From Flammeovirgaceae bacterium SG7u.111 (lineage in GTDB: Bacteria > Bacteroidota > Bacteroidia > Cytophagales > Flammeovirgaceae), in the NCBI GenBank assembly GCA_034044135.1, contig CP139021.1, forward strand, positions 6,982,001-7,046,000: DNA of 64,000 nucleotides, written 5' to 3'. Under the pieces are notes generated by a model. The model saw only the letters and a list, made by a program, of their open reading frames with translations. It did not search any database and was not told the origin of the DNA. Positions 48,551-55,671 of this stretch are shown in pieces (position 1 is the first letter of the stretch; each line of letters begins with the position of its first letter). The position numbers were made by a program, and so were the translations under genes.

Positions 48551-51190
48551 CTAAGACAGGCTAAAGCCTATTCCTTTCTGCTGCTTACCAAACAAACTTT
48601 CCACATTAATTTGTTTCACATCAGCATAAGTTAATGTTTGGAGCGCTTTTTTGGTTCGCTTCTGCTGAGGCAAGGCAGCCATACGCAGATGTTGTATTTT
48701 TATAGACTGGTCAATAAGCTTTCTCACTTCCCTCCCATTCCCAAAAAACTTATCACGTTTATGATAAAGAAGTTCGAAATGCCTGCGCAAATGGTCTTTT
48801 GCTTTTGCATCAGCCTTCAGGTTTTCTTCGGCAAGCATGAAACAAGCTATCTCGTAAAGCTCATCTACATTAAAATCTTCGAACAACATTTCTTTTTCAA
48901 ATCGCGATTTCAAGCCTGGGTTCATCTTTAGTAACCGCTCCATCTCACCTGTATACCCTGCCATTATCACAATGAACTCGCCCCTGCTGTCTTCCATCTC
49001 TTTCAAAATCACCTCCATCGCTTCTTTTCCATAGTCCCCCGTTCCATTGCTCGAAAAAAGCGAGTAGGCCTCATCTACAAACAGCACCCCTCCTTTGGCT
49101 TTGCTCACTAGTTCTTGAGTTTTCATGGCTGTTTGACCTATGTAGCCCGCCACTAAATCTTGCCTACTGCACTCTACCAAATGTCCTCTTTCCAAAATCC
49201 CCAAGGCTTTGTAAGTCTGAGCTAAAATGCGTGCTACGGTAGTTTTTCCTGTACCAGGGTTGCCTTTAAATACAGTATGAAGAGGAAACTTCCCCAAAAT
49301 ATCTCGGTGCGACTCCCTGTAAAACTTCACCAACCTGATAAGCTCGTGAATATTATTTTTTATAGAAGTAAGTCCCACCAATTCATTCAACTTCTCCAAT
49401 GAAATAGTCAAAAGTTCATGGTCAATTCCAATCTCTGGATTCTCTTTTTCTTGCGACTTGAAAACTGCTTCTAAATCCTCCAGCTTTATATTTTTCAATT
49501 TCTGTTTTTTAGGCTCATGACCTGCCACTCCAGCTACTTCTTTCATCACCCTTAAGCCCATTTCCATTTTGGCTTCGTCTATAATGGAGCTTACCAGCCT
49601 CGCATTGCCAAACGTATGGTCACGCTCCCTAAACTTATCGGTAAGCTTTTTCTTCAGAGATGCACGAGCACTTTTGGTAAAACTGATTTCCTTCTCTGCG
49701 GACATGATATCGGCTATTTGCATCAGGTCTTGGGGCAGGTAGTCAGGAAAGTTAAAATAGGTTTTAAAACGAGATTTGAGACCAGGGTTAGAACTTAAAA
49801 AGATCTCCATTTCCTTGGGATAACCTGCGGCAAAAATGGCAATATCACCAGGTCCATCCGACATTTCCTTTACCAAAATCTCGATAACCTCATGACCATA
49901 ATCCTTATTGTCGTCCTCGTTTCGCACCAGTGAATATGCCTCATCAATGAACAAAACACCACCTCGGGCAGTCTCTATAATATCTTTTACCTTCGGTGCC
50001 GTCTGCCCAATATACTGACCTATTAACTCTGCCCTGCCTACTTCATGCAATTTGCCATTGCTCAGCAACCCCATCTGGTAATACAGCTTTCCTAGCAAAC
50101 GGGCCACAGTAGTTTTTCCTGTACCAGGGTTGCCCAAAAATACCGAATGCAAGTTGGCAGGTTCACTTTCTTCAAAGCCCTGTTCTTTCCTGAGCTTCAC
50201 AAATTCAAGGTATTTCACATAATCGTGAATCCGTTTCTTTATCTCTACCAAGCCTATCAGCTTGTTCAGTTGCTTTAAGTTATCTTCTAATTTTTCACCC
50301 GTACTTTCGGCCAAAGCATCGTCATCTTGTTTGATAAAAGTATCCTCACCTACAAGTACTTGGCAATTTCCCTCTACATTTTCATCGCCACATTCAAAAG
50401 GAACTATTGCCAGCAACTGATCCATGAACACTACTTCTAAAGTATAGCGACCATAATACCACGACCCTTTCAATTCGGAGCCCCAACCTGTTACCAAAAC
50501 TACTTCCGATTCCGTATTTTTTATTTGTCTAAGCTCTACGGTGCAGCCTTTAAGTTGCCTTGCCTCATTATAAAAATTGAAGGTGATTTCACTAAACCAT
50601 GAGCGTTCTTGAAGATTTTCTATCACAAACTCAGCCCACACATAGCGAGTATCTTTTACACTAAATTGCTTGAGGTATTTTCGTTGATCCTGTTCTATAC
50701 CCGAATCCCCCCCCTCAAAAAGCTTGATATTCATGAGCTCAAAATAGGGATTTAGCTCAGGCGTTACAGGTCCGCTATCTTCTACATAAAAATACGCTTT
50801 CCCAACAAAGTCATCTTGAATGTAAGCTTCCCACAAGTAATCGCCCCTTTTCCAGTAATGTCCTGGCTCTTCATGCCCCCAACCTTCTCGTATTTTTACC
50901 ACGTTTTCGGCCACGGGCACTTCCTTCTCCAAGGGCAGCTCACAAAGAAGTTCTTTTTCGCCCTCCACTAGTTTGTAACATTTTAATGTGAGGTGTATAA
51001 ACCAATTTTCTACATCAAAATATTTGTTGAAAAATGAAAGTTCCACATACAGATAAGAAACCTCGCAGCTCTCAAAAACCCGTCTATATTTTTTTTGCCC
51101 ATTAGCCAACCACTCGGTAGAGGAGTAAATTTTTAGCCCTTTGTACTTGTATTTGGCGGAATTTTCTGGGCTTCTACTTTCTTCCTTCAT
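48551..51190 (-). CDS. Tandem CbbX/SpoVK-type AAA+ ATPase with duplicated N-terminal beta domain
   Basis: 879 residues. Two AAA+ modules share the same arrangement: Walker A GNPGTGKT at 353-360 and 643-650, Walker B LFIDEAY and LFVDEAY near 413 and 703, pore-like GQYIGQTAPKVK and AGYIGQTAMKTQ, and NPGLKSRF finger segments. Both ATPases look intact. Before them, residues about 15-140 and 155-270 appear to be a duplicated all-beta domain I cannot name (paired features: the RGDYLWEAYI and YGRYTLEVVF strands, each after a GWG). The nearest characterised relatives by AAA type are CbbX, SpoVK and EccA, which remodel protein complexes. No signal peptide. Function unknown; probably a cytosolic remodelling machine whose N-domains choose the client. 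Confidence 0.82.
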   Translation of the reverse strand: MKEESRSPENSAKYKYKGLKIYSSTEWLANGQKKYRRVFESCEVSYLYVELSFFNKYFDVENWFIHLTLKCYKLVEGEKELLCELPLEKEVPVAENVVKIREGWGHEEPGHYWKRGDYLWEAYIQDDFVGKAYFYVEDSGPVTPELNPYFELMNIKLFEGGDSGIEQDQRKYLKQFSVKDTRYVWAEFVIENLQERSWFSEITFNFYNEARQLKGCTVELRQIKNTESEVVLVTGWGSELKGSWYYGRYTLEVVFMDQLLAIVPFECGDENVEGNCQVLVGEDTFIKQDDDALAESTGEKLEDNLKQLNKLIGLVEIKKRIHDYVKYLEFVKLRKEQGFEESEPANLHSVFLGNPGTGKTTVARLLGKLYYQMGLLSNGKLHEVGRAELIGQYIGQTAPKVKDIIETARGGVLFIDEAYSLVRNEDDNKDYGHEVIEILVKEMSDGPGDIAIFAAGYPKEMEIFLSSNPGLKSRFKTYFNFPDYLPQDLMQIADIMSAEKEISFTKSARASLKKKLTDKFRERDHTFGNARLVSSIIDEAKMEMGLRVMKEVAGVAGHEPKKQKLKNIKLEDLEAVFKSQEKENPEIGIDHELLTISLEKLNELVGLTSIKNNIHELIRLVKFYRESHRDILGKFPLHTVFKGNPGTGKTTVARILAQTYKALGILERGHLVECSRQDLVAGYIGQTAMKTQELVSKAKGGVLFVDEAYSLFSSNGTGDYGKEAMEVILKEMEDSRGEFIVIMAGYTGEMERLLKMNPGLKSRFEKEMLFEDFNVDELYEIACFMLAEENLKADAKAKDHLRRHFELLYHKRDKFFGNGREVRKLIDQSIKIQHLRMAALPQQKRTKKALQTLTYADVKQINVESLFGKQQKGIGFSLS

Positions 51191-51408
51191 TCTCTTTGGT
51201 GTTAATTTTAAACTCGGTTAACTTCTCGTGAAAGCGATATAAAACTTCGTATAAATTCAAATTGACCATACAAACCTTTACAATATACATTTTTTCTAGT
51301 TGAAAATAAAGTTATTTCTCCAGCCCCACCCACACTTATTTAGCCCAAATAAAAAAAATACAAGGAGTACATTTGGATTATTCATTACATATTCATTTTT
51401 TTGTTGCC

Positions 51409-51459
51409 ATGAAAACAACGGCACTACACATTAGGAATTGGTGGCACACTTGGATATAA
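51409..51459 (+). CDS. trpL: trp operon leader peptide
   Basis: A 16-codon frame, MKTTALHIRNWWHTWI then TAA. Three Trp codons (TGG at 51439, 51442 and 51451) in 16 is far above expectation, and the frame lies 97 bp before trpE with a terminator hairpin between. Stalling at the Trp codons would leave the 3' half of the CACTTG/CAAGTG hairpin free, the standard logic of ribosome-mediated attenuation. Direct sequence support is strong; regulation is inferred. Confidence 0.85.
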   Translation: MKTTALHIRNWWHTWI

Positions 51460-51510
51460 TCAAGTGGACAGGCTACGCCTATAGTGCATTTTTAAATATA
51501 TAAGATATAT

Positions 51511-51550
51511 AAAATGGCTTTCTGTTCACTCAGAAAGCCATTTTTGTTTT
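51511..51550 (+). terminator. trp attenuator (terminator hairpin before trpE)
   Basis: Arms AAAATGGCTTTCTG (51511-51524) and CAGAAAGCCATTTT (51531-51544), 6-nt loop, then TTTTTGTTTT overlapping the end of the stem. It ends 7 nt before the trpE ATG, so any trpEGDC transcript from upstream must pass it. Confidence 0.9.
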
Positions 51551-51556
51551 AAACTC

Positions 51557-52993
51557 ATGCAAAAGACCCTCAAAAAAGTGGAAACATTTAACATCAAAAC
51601 CCAAACACGAAAATTACTGGCAGACACTTTTACCCCTGTTAGTATCTACCTCCAGCTAAGAGATGTGTTCGTAAACAGCATTTTGCTAGAAAGCTCCGAC
51701 TACCATGGCAATGACAATGCTTTTACCTACATCTGCTGTGAGCCTATCGCCACTTTTGAAGCAAAAGGAAAGTCTGTGACCGAAAAGCTTCCAAATGGAA
51801 AAACCATCAACCATTCGCTGGCATCTAACAGCGAAATGCTCGGACATCTCAACGGGTTTGTGGAAAAATTCAAAGCCGAAGATTTAGGACATAAGTTCAT
51901 CCACAACGGGCTTTTTGGCTACATGACCTACGACTCGGTACAATATTATGAAGAAATAGAATTTGGGAACAAGCCTACCGAGGAAATGAAAATTCCCGAT
52001 ACAATGTATCAAGTTTATCGCTATATCATCGCTATCAATCATTTCAACGAAGAAATTTTCCTGTTTGAAAACAATGTAGAAGGGGTGGAAAGCCTAAGCA
52101 AACTCGACCAAATTCAGGCACTGCTCAGTAACCGAAGTTACGTTACCCACCAGTTTGACCCAGAACCCGAGGAAGCCACCAATTTTACCGACGATGAATA
52201 TATGGGAATCGTGGAAAAAGGAATAAAGCATTGCAAGCGAGGAGATGTTTTCCAAATAGTACTTTCCCGCAGGTTCAGCAAAAATTTCAAAGGTGACGAA
52301 TTCAACGTCTATCGCGCCCTACGCTCCATCAATCCCTCCCCCTACCTTTTCTACTTCGACTATGGCAACTACAAAATATTTGGTTCTTCGCCCGAAGCCC
52401 AAATTGTAATTAAAGACAAGCAAGCTGCCATTTATCCAATAGCGGGTACTTTCCGCCGAACCGGAAACGACAAGCAAGACGAAGAAGTAGCAAGGCAACT
52501 TTTTGACGATCCCAAAGAAAACTCAGAGCACTTAATGCTGGTAGATTTGGCTAGAAACGACCTAAGCAGAAATGGAGAAAAAGTAGAAGTTGCCACGTTC
52601 AAAGAAATTCAGTACTTCTCGCACGTAATTCATTTGGTTTCCAAAGTAATTGGCAAAGTAACGAAAGATAATATTTTACAAGTAGTTGCAGATACCTTTC
52701 CCGCTGGTACACTTTCCGGAGCTCCAAAATATATGGCCATGGAACTTATTGATAAATACGAAACCGTAAGCCGAGGGTACTACGGAGGCTGCATCGGATT
52801 TTTAGGCTTCAACGGCGAGTTTAACCATGCTATAATGATCCGTTCGTTCCTCTCTAAAAACAATACACTTTATTACCAAGCAGGAGCTGGAGTAGTGGCA
52901 AAATCGAACCCAAGAAGTGAAATGGAAGAGGTGAACAACAAACTAATGGCACTCAGAAAAGCCATTGAGGTTGCTTCGGAAATAAAAGCATAA
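51557..52993 (+). CDS. trpE: Anthranilate synthase component I
   Basis: 478 residues. With TrpG it makes anthranilate from chorismate. The N-terminal Trp-binding motif LLESSD (43-48) indicates feedback inhibition by tryptophan. The C-terminal chorismate-binding domain shows VFQIVLSRRF, NPSPYLFYFDYG, GSSPEAQIV, PIAGTFRRTG, DLARNDLSR, FPAGTLSGAPK and YYGGCIGFLGFNG. It is the first structural gene after the attenuator and is followed by trpG after 49 bp. It therefore has two control levels: attenuation and end-product inhibition. Confidence 0.97.
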   Translation: MQKTLKKVETFNIKTQTRKLLADTFTPVSIYLQLRDVFVNSILLESSDYHGNDNAFTYICCEPIATFEAKGKSVTEKLPNGKTINHSLASNSEMLGHLNGFVEKFKAEDLGHKFIHNGLFGYMTYDSVQYYEEIEFGNKPTEEMKIPDTMYQVYRYIIAINHFNEEIFLFENNVEGVESLSKLDQIQALLSNRSYVTHQFDPEPEEATNFTDDEYMGIVEKGIKHCKRGDVFQIVLSRRFSKNFKGDEFNVYRALRSINPSPYLFYFDYGNYKIFGSSPEAQIVIKDKQAAIYPIAGTFRRTGNDKQDEEVARQLFDDPKENSEHLMLVDLARNDLSRNGEKVEVATFKEIQYFSHVIHLVSKVIGKVTKDNILQVVADTFPAGTLSGAPKYMAMELIDKYETVSRGYYGGCIGFLGFNGEFNHAIMIRSFLSKNNTLYYQAGAGVVAKSNPRSEMEEVNNKLMALRKAIEVASEIKA

Positions 52994-53042: not shown

Positions 53043-53609
53043 ATGAACTTACTCATACTCGATAATTACGATTCGTTCACCTACAATCTCGTCCATTTGG
53101 TGAAGCACCTCGGCTACTCTCCTGTAATTAAAAGGAATGACAAAATTAGTCTTGATGACGTAGATGCCTATGATAAAATACTCCTTTCCCCAGGCCCTGG
53201 CATTCCTGAAGAAGCAGGAATAATGATGGATTTGATAAAAAGATATGCACCGACTAAAAGCATAATGGGCGTTTGCCTTGGCCACCAAGGTATTTCCGAA
53301 GCTTTTGGTGCCAAGCTGCATAATTTGGATTTGGTCTATCACGGCATAGTCACCGATACAGAAATCACCGATGCCGAAGAGATTCTTTTCAAGGATTTAC
53401 CTACTACACTGAAAACCTGCCGCTACCACTCATGGGTAGTTGACCCAGAAGGCTTGCCCAACTGCCTCGAAGTCACCGCTACCAACAGCGAGGGCAGGAT
53501 CATGGCGATTAGGCACAAGGAATTCGATGTGCGCGGAGTGCAATTCCACCCCGAGTCTTTCTTGACCGAAGGCGGCGAAACCATGCTTAAAAACTGGTTA
53601 GAATCGTAG
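53043..53609 (+). CDS. trpG: Anthranilate synthase component II (glutamine amidotransferase)
   Basis: 188 residues, same length as the PabA-like copy at 10569 but clearly distinct. Cys78 in MGVCLGHQ, His169 and Glu171 in VQFHPES make the amidotransferase triad; the loop SPGPGIPEEAG is standard. It donates ammonia to TrpE, encoded 49 bp upstream. The trpD gene follows after 36 bp. Position in the operon makes the TrpG assignment safe. Confidence 0.96.
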   Translation: MNLLILDNYDSFTYNLVHLVKHLGYSPVIKRNDKISLDDVDAYDKILLSPGPGIPEEAGIMMDLIKRYAPTKSIMGVCLGHQGISEAFGAKLHNLDLVYHGIVTDTEITDAEEILFKDLPTTLKTCRYHSWVVDPEGLPNCLEVTATNSEGRIMAIRHKEFDVRGVQFHPESFLTEGGETMLKNWLES

Positions 53610-53645: not shown

Positions 53646-54626
53646 ATGAAAGAAATATTAAACCATCTTTTTGAATACAAAACCCTTTCAAAAGAGCAGG
53701 CAAAGGAAATTTTGACAAATCTGGCTCAGGGCAAATATAACAACAGCCAAGTCGCTGCTTTCATGACGGTTTACCTCATGAGGAACATTACGGTAAATGA
53801 ACTAGCAGGCTTTAGGGATGCTATGCTGGAGCTTTGCCTCCCAGTAAAGTTTGACCACGATGTAATAGACCTTTGCGGAACGGGTGGCGATGGGAAAAAT
53901 ACTTTTAATATAAGCACACTGTCTTCTTTTGTTACCGCTGGAGCTGGGGTAAAAGTTGCCAAACATGGCAATTACGGGGTTTCTTCTGTTTCTGGTTCTT
54001 CTAACGTGTTGGAATATTTTGGCTACAAATTCACCAACAACACGGATGAACTCAGAAAAAAAATGGACGAGGCAAATATCTGCTTTCTTCACGCACCATT
54101 GTTCCATCCAGCCATGAAAAACGTTGCCCCAATTAGGCGGGAGCTTGGCATCAAAACCTTTTTCAATATGTTGGGACCAATAGTGAACCCGTCCAAACCC
54201 AAGTACCAATTAGTGGGTGTTTTCAGCTTAGAGCTCCAAAGGCTATATGCGTATTTGTACCAAAATACATACAAGCATTATGCAATTATCCACGCACTAG
54301 ACGGCTATGATGAAGTTTCTCTTACGGGTGATATCAAATCGGTAACGCACCAAGGCGAACAGCTGCTTACCCCTTCTGACCTTGGTTTGCCCAAACTCAC
54401 CCAAGAAGAAATTTCTGGGGGAGAATCGGTAGAAGATGCTGCCACTATTTTCAAAAATGTATTGGAAGGAAATAGCACCGAAGCACAAAGAAATGTGGTT
54501 TTAGCAAATTCAACCTTAGCTATTGCTTGCGCTAAAAACATCTCAAATACAGAAGCTCTTGAACTTGCCAAAGACTCCTTGGACTCGGGCAGGGCAAAAG
54601 CTGCTCTAAAAAAACTCATCGATTAA
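53646..54626 (+). CDS. trpD: Anthranilate phosphoribosyltransferase
   Basis: 326 residues. It couples anthranilate to PRPP. Signature DLCGTGGDGKNTFNIST (PRPP loop), KHGNYGVSSVSGSSNVLEYFG, the anthranilate-site FLHAPLFHPAMKNVAPIRRELGIKTFFNMLGP and HALDGYDEVSL are complete. Third gene of trpEGDC. The TAA is followed 28 bp later by a 68-residue frame of unknown function. Confidence 0.97.
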   Translation: MKEILNHLFEYKTLSKEQAKEILTNLAQGKYNNSQVAAFMTVYLMRNITVNELAGFRDAMLELCLPVKFDHDVIDLCGTGGDGKNTFNISTLSSFVTAGAGVKVAKHGNYGVSSVSGSSNVLEYFGYKFTNNTDELRKKMDEANICFLHAPLFHPAMKNVAPIRRELGIKTFFNMLGPIVNPSKPKYQLVGVFSLELQRLYAYLYQNTYKHYAIIHALDGYDEVSLTGDIKSVTHQGEQLLTPSDLGLPKLTQEEISGGESVEDAATIFKNVLEGNSTEAQRNVVLANSTLAIACAKNISNTEALELAKDSLDSGRAKAALKKLID

Positions 54627-54654
54627 CCTTACCCATCTCTTAACCAATACAACC

Positions 54655-54861
54655 ATGACTAAATACATAGAGAGCATCCAACGATTTGCCAAACTGGAAA
54701 AAGATTATCATAGTAAATTCCCAAACGCTCAACCCGTTGGCAATTTTTTCGCTTATTTTGAACTAGACGACTTACTTGATATAATACAAGGAGCAAACGG
54801 AAAGGAGATAAAATTCACACTGGAAAAACAAACAAATAGCTGCTCGTATAGCTATTTGTAG
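54655..54861 (+). CDS. Small unknown protein between trpD and trpC
   Basis: 68 residues from ATG at 54655, 28 bp after trpD and 18 bp before trpC, so it fills the operon gap tightly. No signal peptide. Sequence is helical at first (IESIQRFAKLEKDYHSKF), then mixed (FFAYFELDDLLDIIQGANGKEIKFTLEKQ). No Trp residue and no family that I recognise. Tight spacing and same strand support translation, but a decayed or fortuitous frame cannot be excluded. Confidence 0.6.
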   Translation: MTKYIESIQRFAKLEKDYHSKFPNAQPVGNFFAYFELDDLLDIIQGANGKEIKFTLEKQTNSCSYSYL

Positions 54862-54879
54862 AAAACTGGATAAAGAAAA

Positions 54880-55671
54880 ATGTCGAATATTTTAGATAAA
54901 ATAATAGCCCACAAGCTACAAGAAACCGCAGCTAGAAAGGAACAAATTTCTATATCAGAACTGGAAAAATCTATTCCTGAAAGAAGTATTATTTCTTTGA
55001 AAGAGAGCATCAAAAAAACAGAAAGCGGAATTATTGCCGAGTTCAAAAGACGCTCACCATCCAAAGGATTAATCAACGGAACTGCTTTACCAAGCGAAGT
55101 TCCAGCTGGGTACTTGGAAGCTGGAGTAGCTGGCGTTTCCATCTTAACTGATGAAGAATTTTTTGGAGGAACCAACGAAGACCTCAAAACTGCACGCTCA
55201 TTTGCCAAAGGACCTATTCTACGTAAGGATTTCACTGTGGAAGAATACAACGTGGTAGAAGCCAGAGCCATAGGAGCTGACGCCATCTTGCTGATAGCCG
55301 CTGCTTTGGAGCCCAAACAGCTCAAAAACTTGGCAAAACTGGCAAAAGAGCTAGGTTTAGAAGTATTAATGGAGATCCACAACAAAGAAGAACTTAATCG
55401 TTCAATAAATGAATATGTCGATTTGGTGGGGGTGAACAACAGGAACTTAAAGACGTTTGAAGTTTCAATAAACACATCGATTGAACTAGAAAAAGCAATC
55501 CCAAATGAGTTTTTGAAAGTTTCAGAAAGTGGAATTAGCAATCCAAAAACAATTTTGGAACTTAGAGAGATTGGCTTTTCAGGCTTTTTAATTGGGGAAA
55601 ACTTCATGAAAACTAATAACCCCATCCAAGCATGCAAAGAGTTTGTAAGTATGCTCAAAAATCTTGGATAG
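54880..55671 (+). CDS. trpC: Indole-3-glycerol phosphate synthase
   Basis: 263 residues. It closes the indole ring from CdRP. Motifs of the TIM barrel: IIAEFKRRSPSKG (catalytic Lys region), ILTDEEFFGG, ILRKDFTVEEYNV, LLIAAALEPKQL, LEVLMEIHN, VGVNNRNLKTFEV and KVSESGISNPKT. Stand-alone, not fused to TrpF as in E. coli. trpF does not follow; corA lies 108 bp on. So the operon ends here and the next pathway steps (trpF, trpB) must be elsewhere. Confidence 0.97.
   Translation: MSNILDKIIAHKLQETAARKEQISISELEKSIPERSIISLKESIKKTESGIIAEFKRRSPSKGLINGTALPSEVPAGYLEAGVAGVSILTDEEFFGGTNEDLKTARSFAKGPILRKDFTVEEYNVVEARAIGADAILLIAAALEPKQLKNLAKLAKELGLEVLMEIHNKEELNRSINEYVDLVGVNNRNLKTFEVSINTSIELEKAIPNEFLKVSESGISNPKTILELREIGFSGFLIGENFMKTNNPIQACKEFVSMLKNLG

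Follow-up and report, generated by a model that had tools for sequence, protein, structure and literature searches.

In the trp attenuator of E. coli, tandem Trp codons are combined with a 1:2 leader hairpin, a 2:3 antiterminator and a 3:4 terminator, and the position of the trpL stop codon makes a terminating ribosome cover segment 2. In the Bacteroidota, the family RF01692 (Bacteroid-trp), named by Rfam as a tryptophan peptide leader, was described in 2010 by Weinberg et al. as a cis-regulatory candidate of Bacteroidetes (PMC2864571), and leader-like short frames have been reported from Bacteroides thetaiotaomicron (PMC7366714). In the accessible parts of two reports on Flavobacterium psychrophilum, Bacteroid-Trp is noted before the trp operon (PMC6414381), and transcriptomes are said to give 'strong clues' to leader-peptide attenuation before amino-acid operons (PMC9723704). 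Signs of leader-peptide attenuation in the Bacteroidota are common to these accounts and to the locus described here, but, unlike the present analysis, the accessible parts of both (PMC9723704, PMC6414381) give no antiterminator pairing or covariation. No relevant report turned up when the open literature was searched for antiterminators of leader peptides in the Bacteroidota.

The locus lies in a window, the whole 64,000-nucleotide stretch of DNA analysed, from a 7.7-Mb genome of the Flammeovirgaceae (Cytophagales, Bacteroidota). Four trp genes were identified by NCBIfam profiles, and the nearest named relative of the window trpE is that of Flexithrix dorotheae, at 74% identity:

51557-52993, plus strand: trpE, anthranilate synthase component I (TIGR00564 is the best family at 408 bits, though below its cut-off of 517.7; orthologues found)
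53043-53609, plus strand: trpG, anthranilate synthase glutamine amidotransferase (TIGR00566, 192.7 bits, cut-off 121)
53646-54626, plus strand: trpD, anthranilate phosphoribosyltransferase (TIGR01245, 318 bits, cut-off 199)
54880-55671, plus strand: trpC, indole-3-glycerol phosphate synthase (NF001377, 290.5 bits, cut-off 260)

Between trpD and trpC there is a gap of 253 nt (54627-54879), in which a repeat resembling a terminator lies on the minus strand (54859-54832). The divergent neighbour of the trp leader (48551-51190, minus strand) encodes an 879-aa protein with two CbbX/SpoVK-type AAA+ domains. A trpF-trpB locus (L198, L200) lies about 190 kb from trpEGDC, and inspection by eye of 270 bases upstream of trpF showed no tandem Trp codons.

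The region before trpE carries the following features:

51368-51375, plus strand: -7 box TACATTTG, of the Bacteroidota form TAnnTTTG, the predicted leader promoter
51409-51459, plus strand: leader ORF of 16 codons (ATG 51409, TAA 51457-51459), peptide MKTTALHIRNWWHTWI; Trp leaders precede trpE in 120 of 174 relatives
51421-51487, plus strand: outer stem, GCACTA (51421-51426) with TAGTGC (51482-51487), from the minimum free energy fold
51439-51444, plus strand: tandem Trp sensor codons 11-12, by direct reading
51447-51466, plus strand: leader hairpin P1 (CACTTG/CAAGTG), 51447-51452 with 51461-51466, predicted to sequester the antiterminator strand
51451-51453, plus strand: third Trp codon, inside the 5' arm of the leader hairpin, by direct reading
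51463-51471, plus strand: antiterminator 5' strand AGUGGACAG (segment 2), 18 nt past the tandem Trp codons
51487-51516, plus strand: AT-rich local hairpin, the antiterminator of an earlier note, judged here not to be the switch
51511-51544, plus strand: intrinsic terminator stem-loop of 14 bp with a 6-nt loop, -18.8 kcal/mol; the stem covaries
51522-51530, plus strand: antiterminator 3' strand CUGUUCACU (segment 3), top of the terminator 5' arm plus terminator loop
51545-51550, plus strand: terminator tail TGTTTT, by direct reading; the attenuated transcript is predicted to end here

An earlier note on this DNA had proposed a 16-residue frame with three Trp codons between a TAnnTTTG box and a terminator, and had drawn a CACTTG/CAAGTG hairpin overlapping the last of these codons; both are borne out at 51409-51459 (box 51368-51375, stem 51511-51544) and at 51447-51452 with 51461-51466, where the third Trp codon lies inside the hairpin. 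The 14-bp terminator of that note also stands, but its gap of 7 nt to trpE does not, as the U-tract ends 6 nt, and the stem 12 nt, before the trpE ATG at 51557. The Trp content of the frame (3/16 codons) bears on the reading that this is a plain terminator or processing hairpin, with a Trp frame that is incidental or serves solely in translational coupling to trpE. The terminator is strong and near trpE, as such a reading would have it, but an ATG frame of 6-35 aa with a Trp pair (WW) and three Trp appeared in none of 3000 dinucleotide shuffles (WW at all in 11), and at 120 loci in relatives the Trp codons are kept and their spacing to a covarying antiterminator is fixed. We therefore give this reading very little credence. 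The leader is the sole 6-35-aa WW frame with three Trp in the whole window, and in all 120 relatives' leaders analysed the Trp pair is tandem or once-interrupted, with WWW in 81. TAnnTTTG occurs in the window at chance level (75 found against 75.7 expected); in 66/120 relatives it is found no more than 60 nt before the leader ATG, against 5/120 for neighbouring 60-nt control windows, and by its sequence and position TACATTTG may act as the leader promoter. No clear -33 promoter box was found upstream of the window leader.

From its sequence and from folding models, the region is very probably an attenuator of the ribosome-mediated kind, acting on transcription of trpEGD(C). It has a leader ORF with codons for the product amino acid, an intrinsic terminator, and an antiterminator that rivals both leader hairpin and terminator, as in attenuators of the trpL type. 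Leader-peptide attenuation of trp genes in the Bacteroidota, as the earlier note had suggested, is well supported by comparison with relatives. Promoter use, ribosome stalling, termination and a response to Trp in cells are what we infer from these parts, as follows. The transcript would begin just past the TAnnTTTG box, and a ribosome would enter the 16-codon leader. With ample Trp-tRNA, the ribosome would reach the stop codon (51457) and cover the strand 51463-51471; once it had departed from the stop, P1 would re-form and sequester the same strand. With 51463-51471 blocked in either way, the 14-bp terminator would fold and transcription would end near 51550. With scarce Trp-tRNA, the ribosome would stall at the tandem Trp codons (51439-51444), masking the 5' arm of P1 and leaving AGUGGACAG free just beyond its edge. 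The free AGUGGACAG could then capture CUGUUCACU on its emergence from the polymerase, invading terminator loop and upper stem before synthesis of the 3' arm, and the polymerase would continue into trpE. Nine pairs inside the loop of an intact stem look sterically impossible, so antiterminator and terminator should exclude each other.

The main evidence for this pairing is comparative. We gathered 174 distinct trpE upstream regions, from named genomes and from the family, order and class, and surveyed them automatically for an intrinsic terminator placed behind a short frame that carries two or more Trp codons. At least 121/174 have this arrangement, nearly all of them in Bacteroidia, a figure that is a lower bound because some loci are cut or misoriented; the Prevotella-type loci among the 174 showed no Trp leader with terminator. 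The leader peptides are diverse (for example MKNVTRNIVKSWWWRSVNSN, MTTIITNKHWWWHNIRS and MNTITLNTSWWWNLSFRNK) and the Trp cluster is constant. Of the 121 leaders, 120 entered the pairing tests, in which each leader's own strands were compared with swapped strands. Specific pairing was confined to a stretch about 12-24 nt past the Trp codons: strands of 16 nt whose start lies 12-18 nt beyond WW paired better with their own partner than with swapped ones (p about 1e-14 to 1e-15), and at other offsets from WW the advantage was hardly present or absent across the 120 leaders. With the basal arm of the terminator as partner, own strands did no better than swapped ones in the same leaders. The own-pairing effect persists after thinning to 86, 64 or 28 dissimilar leaders (0/5000 permutations). 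The antiterminator strand of relatives follows the tandem Trp codons at a median of 19 nt (IQR 18-21), an offset in keeping with the front edge of a ribosome stalled there.

In an alignment of 22 leaders (A1), picked because they could be aligned, the antiterminator helix is paired in 95.4% of cells and shows two-sided changes in 5/8 pairs. It was matched on every measure by 0/500 shuffles, a control that leaves relatedness in, and slid versions of the helix reach only 29-50% paired. Both partner strands vary together in relatives, as in GUAAACAG/CUGUUUAC (L002) and GCUGUGGGCAAC/GUUGCUCACAGC (L147), and further co-changed strands are GUGGACU/AGUUCAU (L014) and GAUGAACACG/CGCUGUUCAUC (L054). 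The terminator stem is paired in 100% of cells in the relatives' alignment and P1 also covaries among relatives, such that all three helices covary. In the upstream-region alignment that the earlier note had called for, Trp codons, terminator and compensatory stems are therefore kept in relatives, in place of the lack of conservation that it had named as counter-evidence. As judged from these sequences, the covarying antiterminator is 51463-51471 with 51522-51530.

Folding models of the window add the dependence on the ribosome. The region 51376-51556 folds at -45 kcal/mol (z = -4.6 against shuffles), and P1 has a pair probability of 0.98-0.99 in the full-length leader. The strand AGUGGACAG is complementary both to the Trp-codon region, in P1, and to the terminator apex, where its duplex with CUGUUCACU is worth -13.4 kcal/mol; in relatives, the antiterminator strand is sequestered by the Trp-codon region with a value of 0.62 versus 0.15 in shuffles. 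The outer stem (51421-51426 with 51482-51487) was considered as a regulatory stem and set aside, the fold of the window being what points to it. With the polymerase at 51529-51532, the modelled antiterminator probability is 0.87-0.97 if the ribosome occupies the tandem Trp codons, 0.00 if it is at the stop codon and 0.01-0.04 if the leader, taken from its ATG, is free; with the ribosome on the third Trp codon it is still 0.73. Masking a competing strand favours the antiterminator by construction, and as such the stop-codon position is the informative comparison. For the whole 5' UTR modelled without a ribosome, the value is 0.47 at 51529, 0.94 at 51532 and 0.04 at 51536, the antiterminator being favoured for a short stretch, which is a point against the attenuator reading. 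Across the 120 leaders, the expected number of antiterminator pairs is 8.6 stalled, 2.6 free and 0.8 at the stop. In folding models, then, the outcome is set by the position of the ribosome, on Trp codons or at the stop. The complete terminator is the equilibrium winner in every modelled state, which implies that antitermination must be kinetic, decided during terminator synthesis.

These models also bear on the antiterminator of the earlier note, a pairing of an AT-rich arm (51487-51501) and the foot of the terminator (51505-51516). That this pairing can form is upheld, and it is probable until the terminator is completed (score about 0.5-0.8 before the terminator), but it is independent of ribosome position, its likelihood being about equal whether the ribosome is absent, stalled or at the stop codon. 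In relatives, pairing between linker and terminator foot is barely specific (own -2.96 versus swapped -2.65 kcal/mol, p = 0.018), and the AT-rich pairing would not stop the upper terminator stem GGCUUUCUG/CAGAAAGCC from forming. The AT-rich arm was therefore rejected as the switch, and we consider it very unlikely to be the antiterminator; the folding under alternative constraints that the earlier note had proposed does point to a ribosome-dependent switch, but one made by strand 51463-51471.

T-box and TRAP-type systems regulate trp genes in Firmicutes, and the present leader might by analogy sense a ligand or protein through a T-box, a TRAP-type site or some other Trp-sensing RNA. An Rfam search of the whole window at cut-offs returned no family, T-box included, and a permissive search (E up to 10) returned no T-box or other Trp-sensing family except Bacteroid-trp, itself below its cut-off; other weak matches of the permissive search (bantam, L20_leader and so on) were taken as chance. 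The B. subtilis TRAP site has 11 (G/U)AG triplets, against two only in 51376-51556. On these grounds ligand or protein sensing by the leader appears to us the least probable of the readings considered, and we retain ribosome-mediated attenuation.

A covariance model built from 22 leaders, the window leader among them (R1), was used to search more widely. In the 7.7-Mb host genome the window leader is its sole good match (E = 2.8e-9, the next being 0.17), and as such no second trp attenuator with a good R1 match was found there. The next match (L202; G000:C1:2560760-2560857, minus strand; weak, E 0.17) has a short frame MNRISIINMIAWQLILLRMGRMLY, then a strong terminator, then an EamA-type-transporter-like gene; it is perhaps another attenuator, or a chance match. 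In a sample of the phylum, R1 found real trp leaders before trpD (L208) and before trpE (L212, L215). It also found a leader MKIELTQMHNWWWPVIENNSGIAM (L213) that precedes a trpE-like gene in a Bacteroidota genome from outside the class Bacteroidia; there the apex pairing can be read directly as AACAGTGGG against CCCACTGTT. At least one R1 match (L210) is terminator-only, and phylum-wide R1 counts were therefore not used. In one genome (L193) the Trp leader does not directly precede trpE but is over 1 kb upstream of it. In the Flexithrix clade, the closest to the window, the leaders (L001, L002 and L003: GFWFWQW, GFWFWYWY and GFWFWYWH; the first is followed by trpE-trpG-trpD) mix Phe, Tyr and Trp codons, which perhaps read all three aromatic amino acids. 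Seven further leaders (L136, L137, L140, L141, L145, L148, L155) are 34-36 residues long with a conserved tail YIKDIGDKSC, and in these the partner of the terminator apex, a conserved GGCGATA, forms part of the coding frame.

For the trp leader of Bacteroidota the likely antiterminator is now named, with covariation support, and its pairing can as such be tested by a single compensatory-mutation experiment. Attenuation of this kind needs a ribosome close behind RNA polymerase, and an attenuator working phylum-wide would therefore argue for coupling of transcription and translation at the trp leader in Bacteroidota.

RF01692 is the top Rfam match of the window leader (51389-51522, end to end, 29.5 bits, E 0.17 in a 351-base search); the leader does not reach the gathering cut-off of 49 bits, and the host genome has no RF01692 match at E <= 0.001. 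Both are from Bacteroidota, stand before trp genes, and have a Trp-codon leader and a hairpin over the Trp codons, but the RF01692 consensus stops at the start of the terminator, and so holds neither terminator nor antiterminator pairing, whereas the switch of the window extends into the terminator. Each of the six loci that RF01692 found combines a WW leader and a terminator with an apex-complementary strand 19-22 nt after WW, the apex pairing being strong against shuffles in three and weak in three. RF01692 passes its cut-off in 5/149 Bacteroidia genomes and in 1/20 trpE-upstream loci tested, most of the latter with the architecture of the window, which suggests that it detects a small share of Bacteroidota trp leaders. 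That the phylum has one attenuator class capturing terminator loop and upper stem, not the whole 5' arm, with RF01692 a fragment of it, seems to us close to an even chance, if slightly under. Because RF01692 loci share its architecture, despite the score below cut-off, the window leader is filed under a known kind, the ribosome-mediated trp attenuators of Bacteroidota; it is not formally an RF01692 match. The E. coli Trp_leader (RF00513) gave no match in the region at E up to 10, and the likeness to trpL, lacking sequence homology, is either convergent or too diverged to tell. According to the folding models, the two share the same segment logic and stop-codon placement. Unlike that of E. coli trpL, the antiterminator of the window takes mainly the terminator loop and the top of the 5' arm, not the whole arm. 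The kind of attenuator is as such already known, and the exact switching RNA pairing is what has been worked out here.
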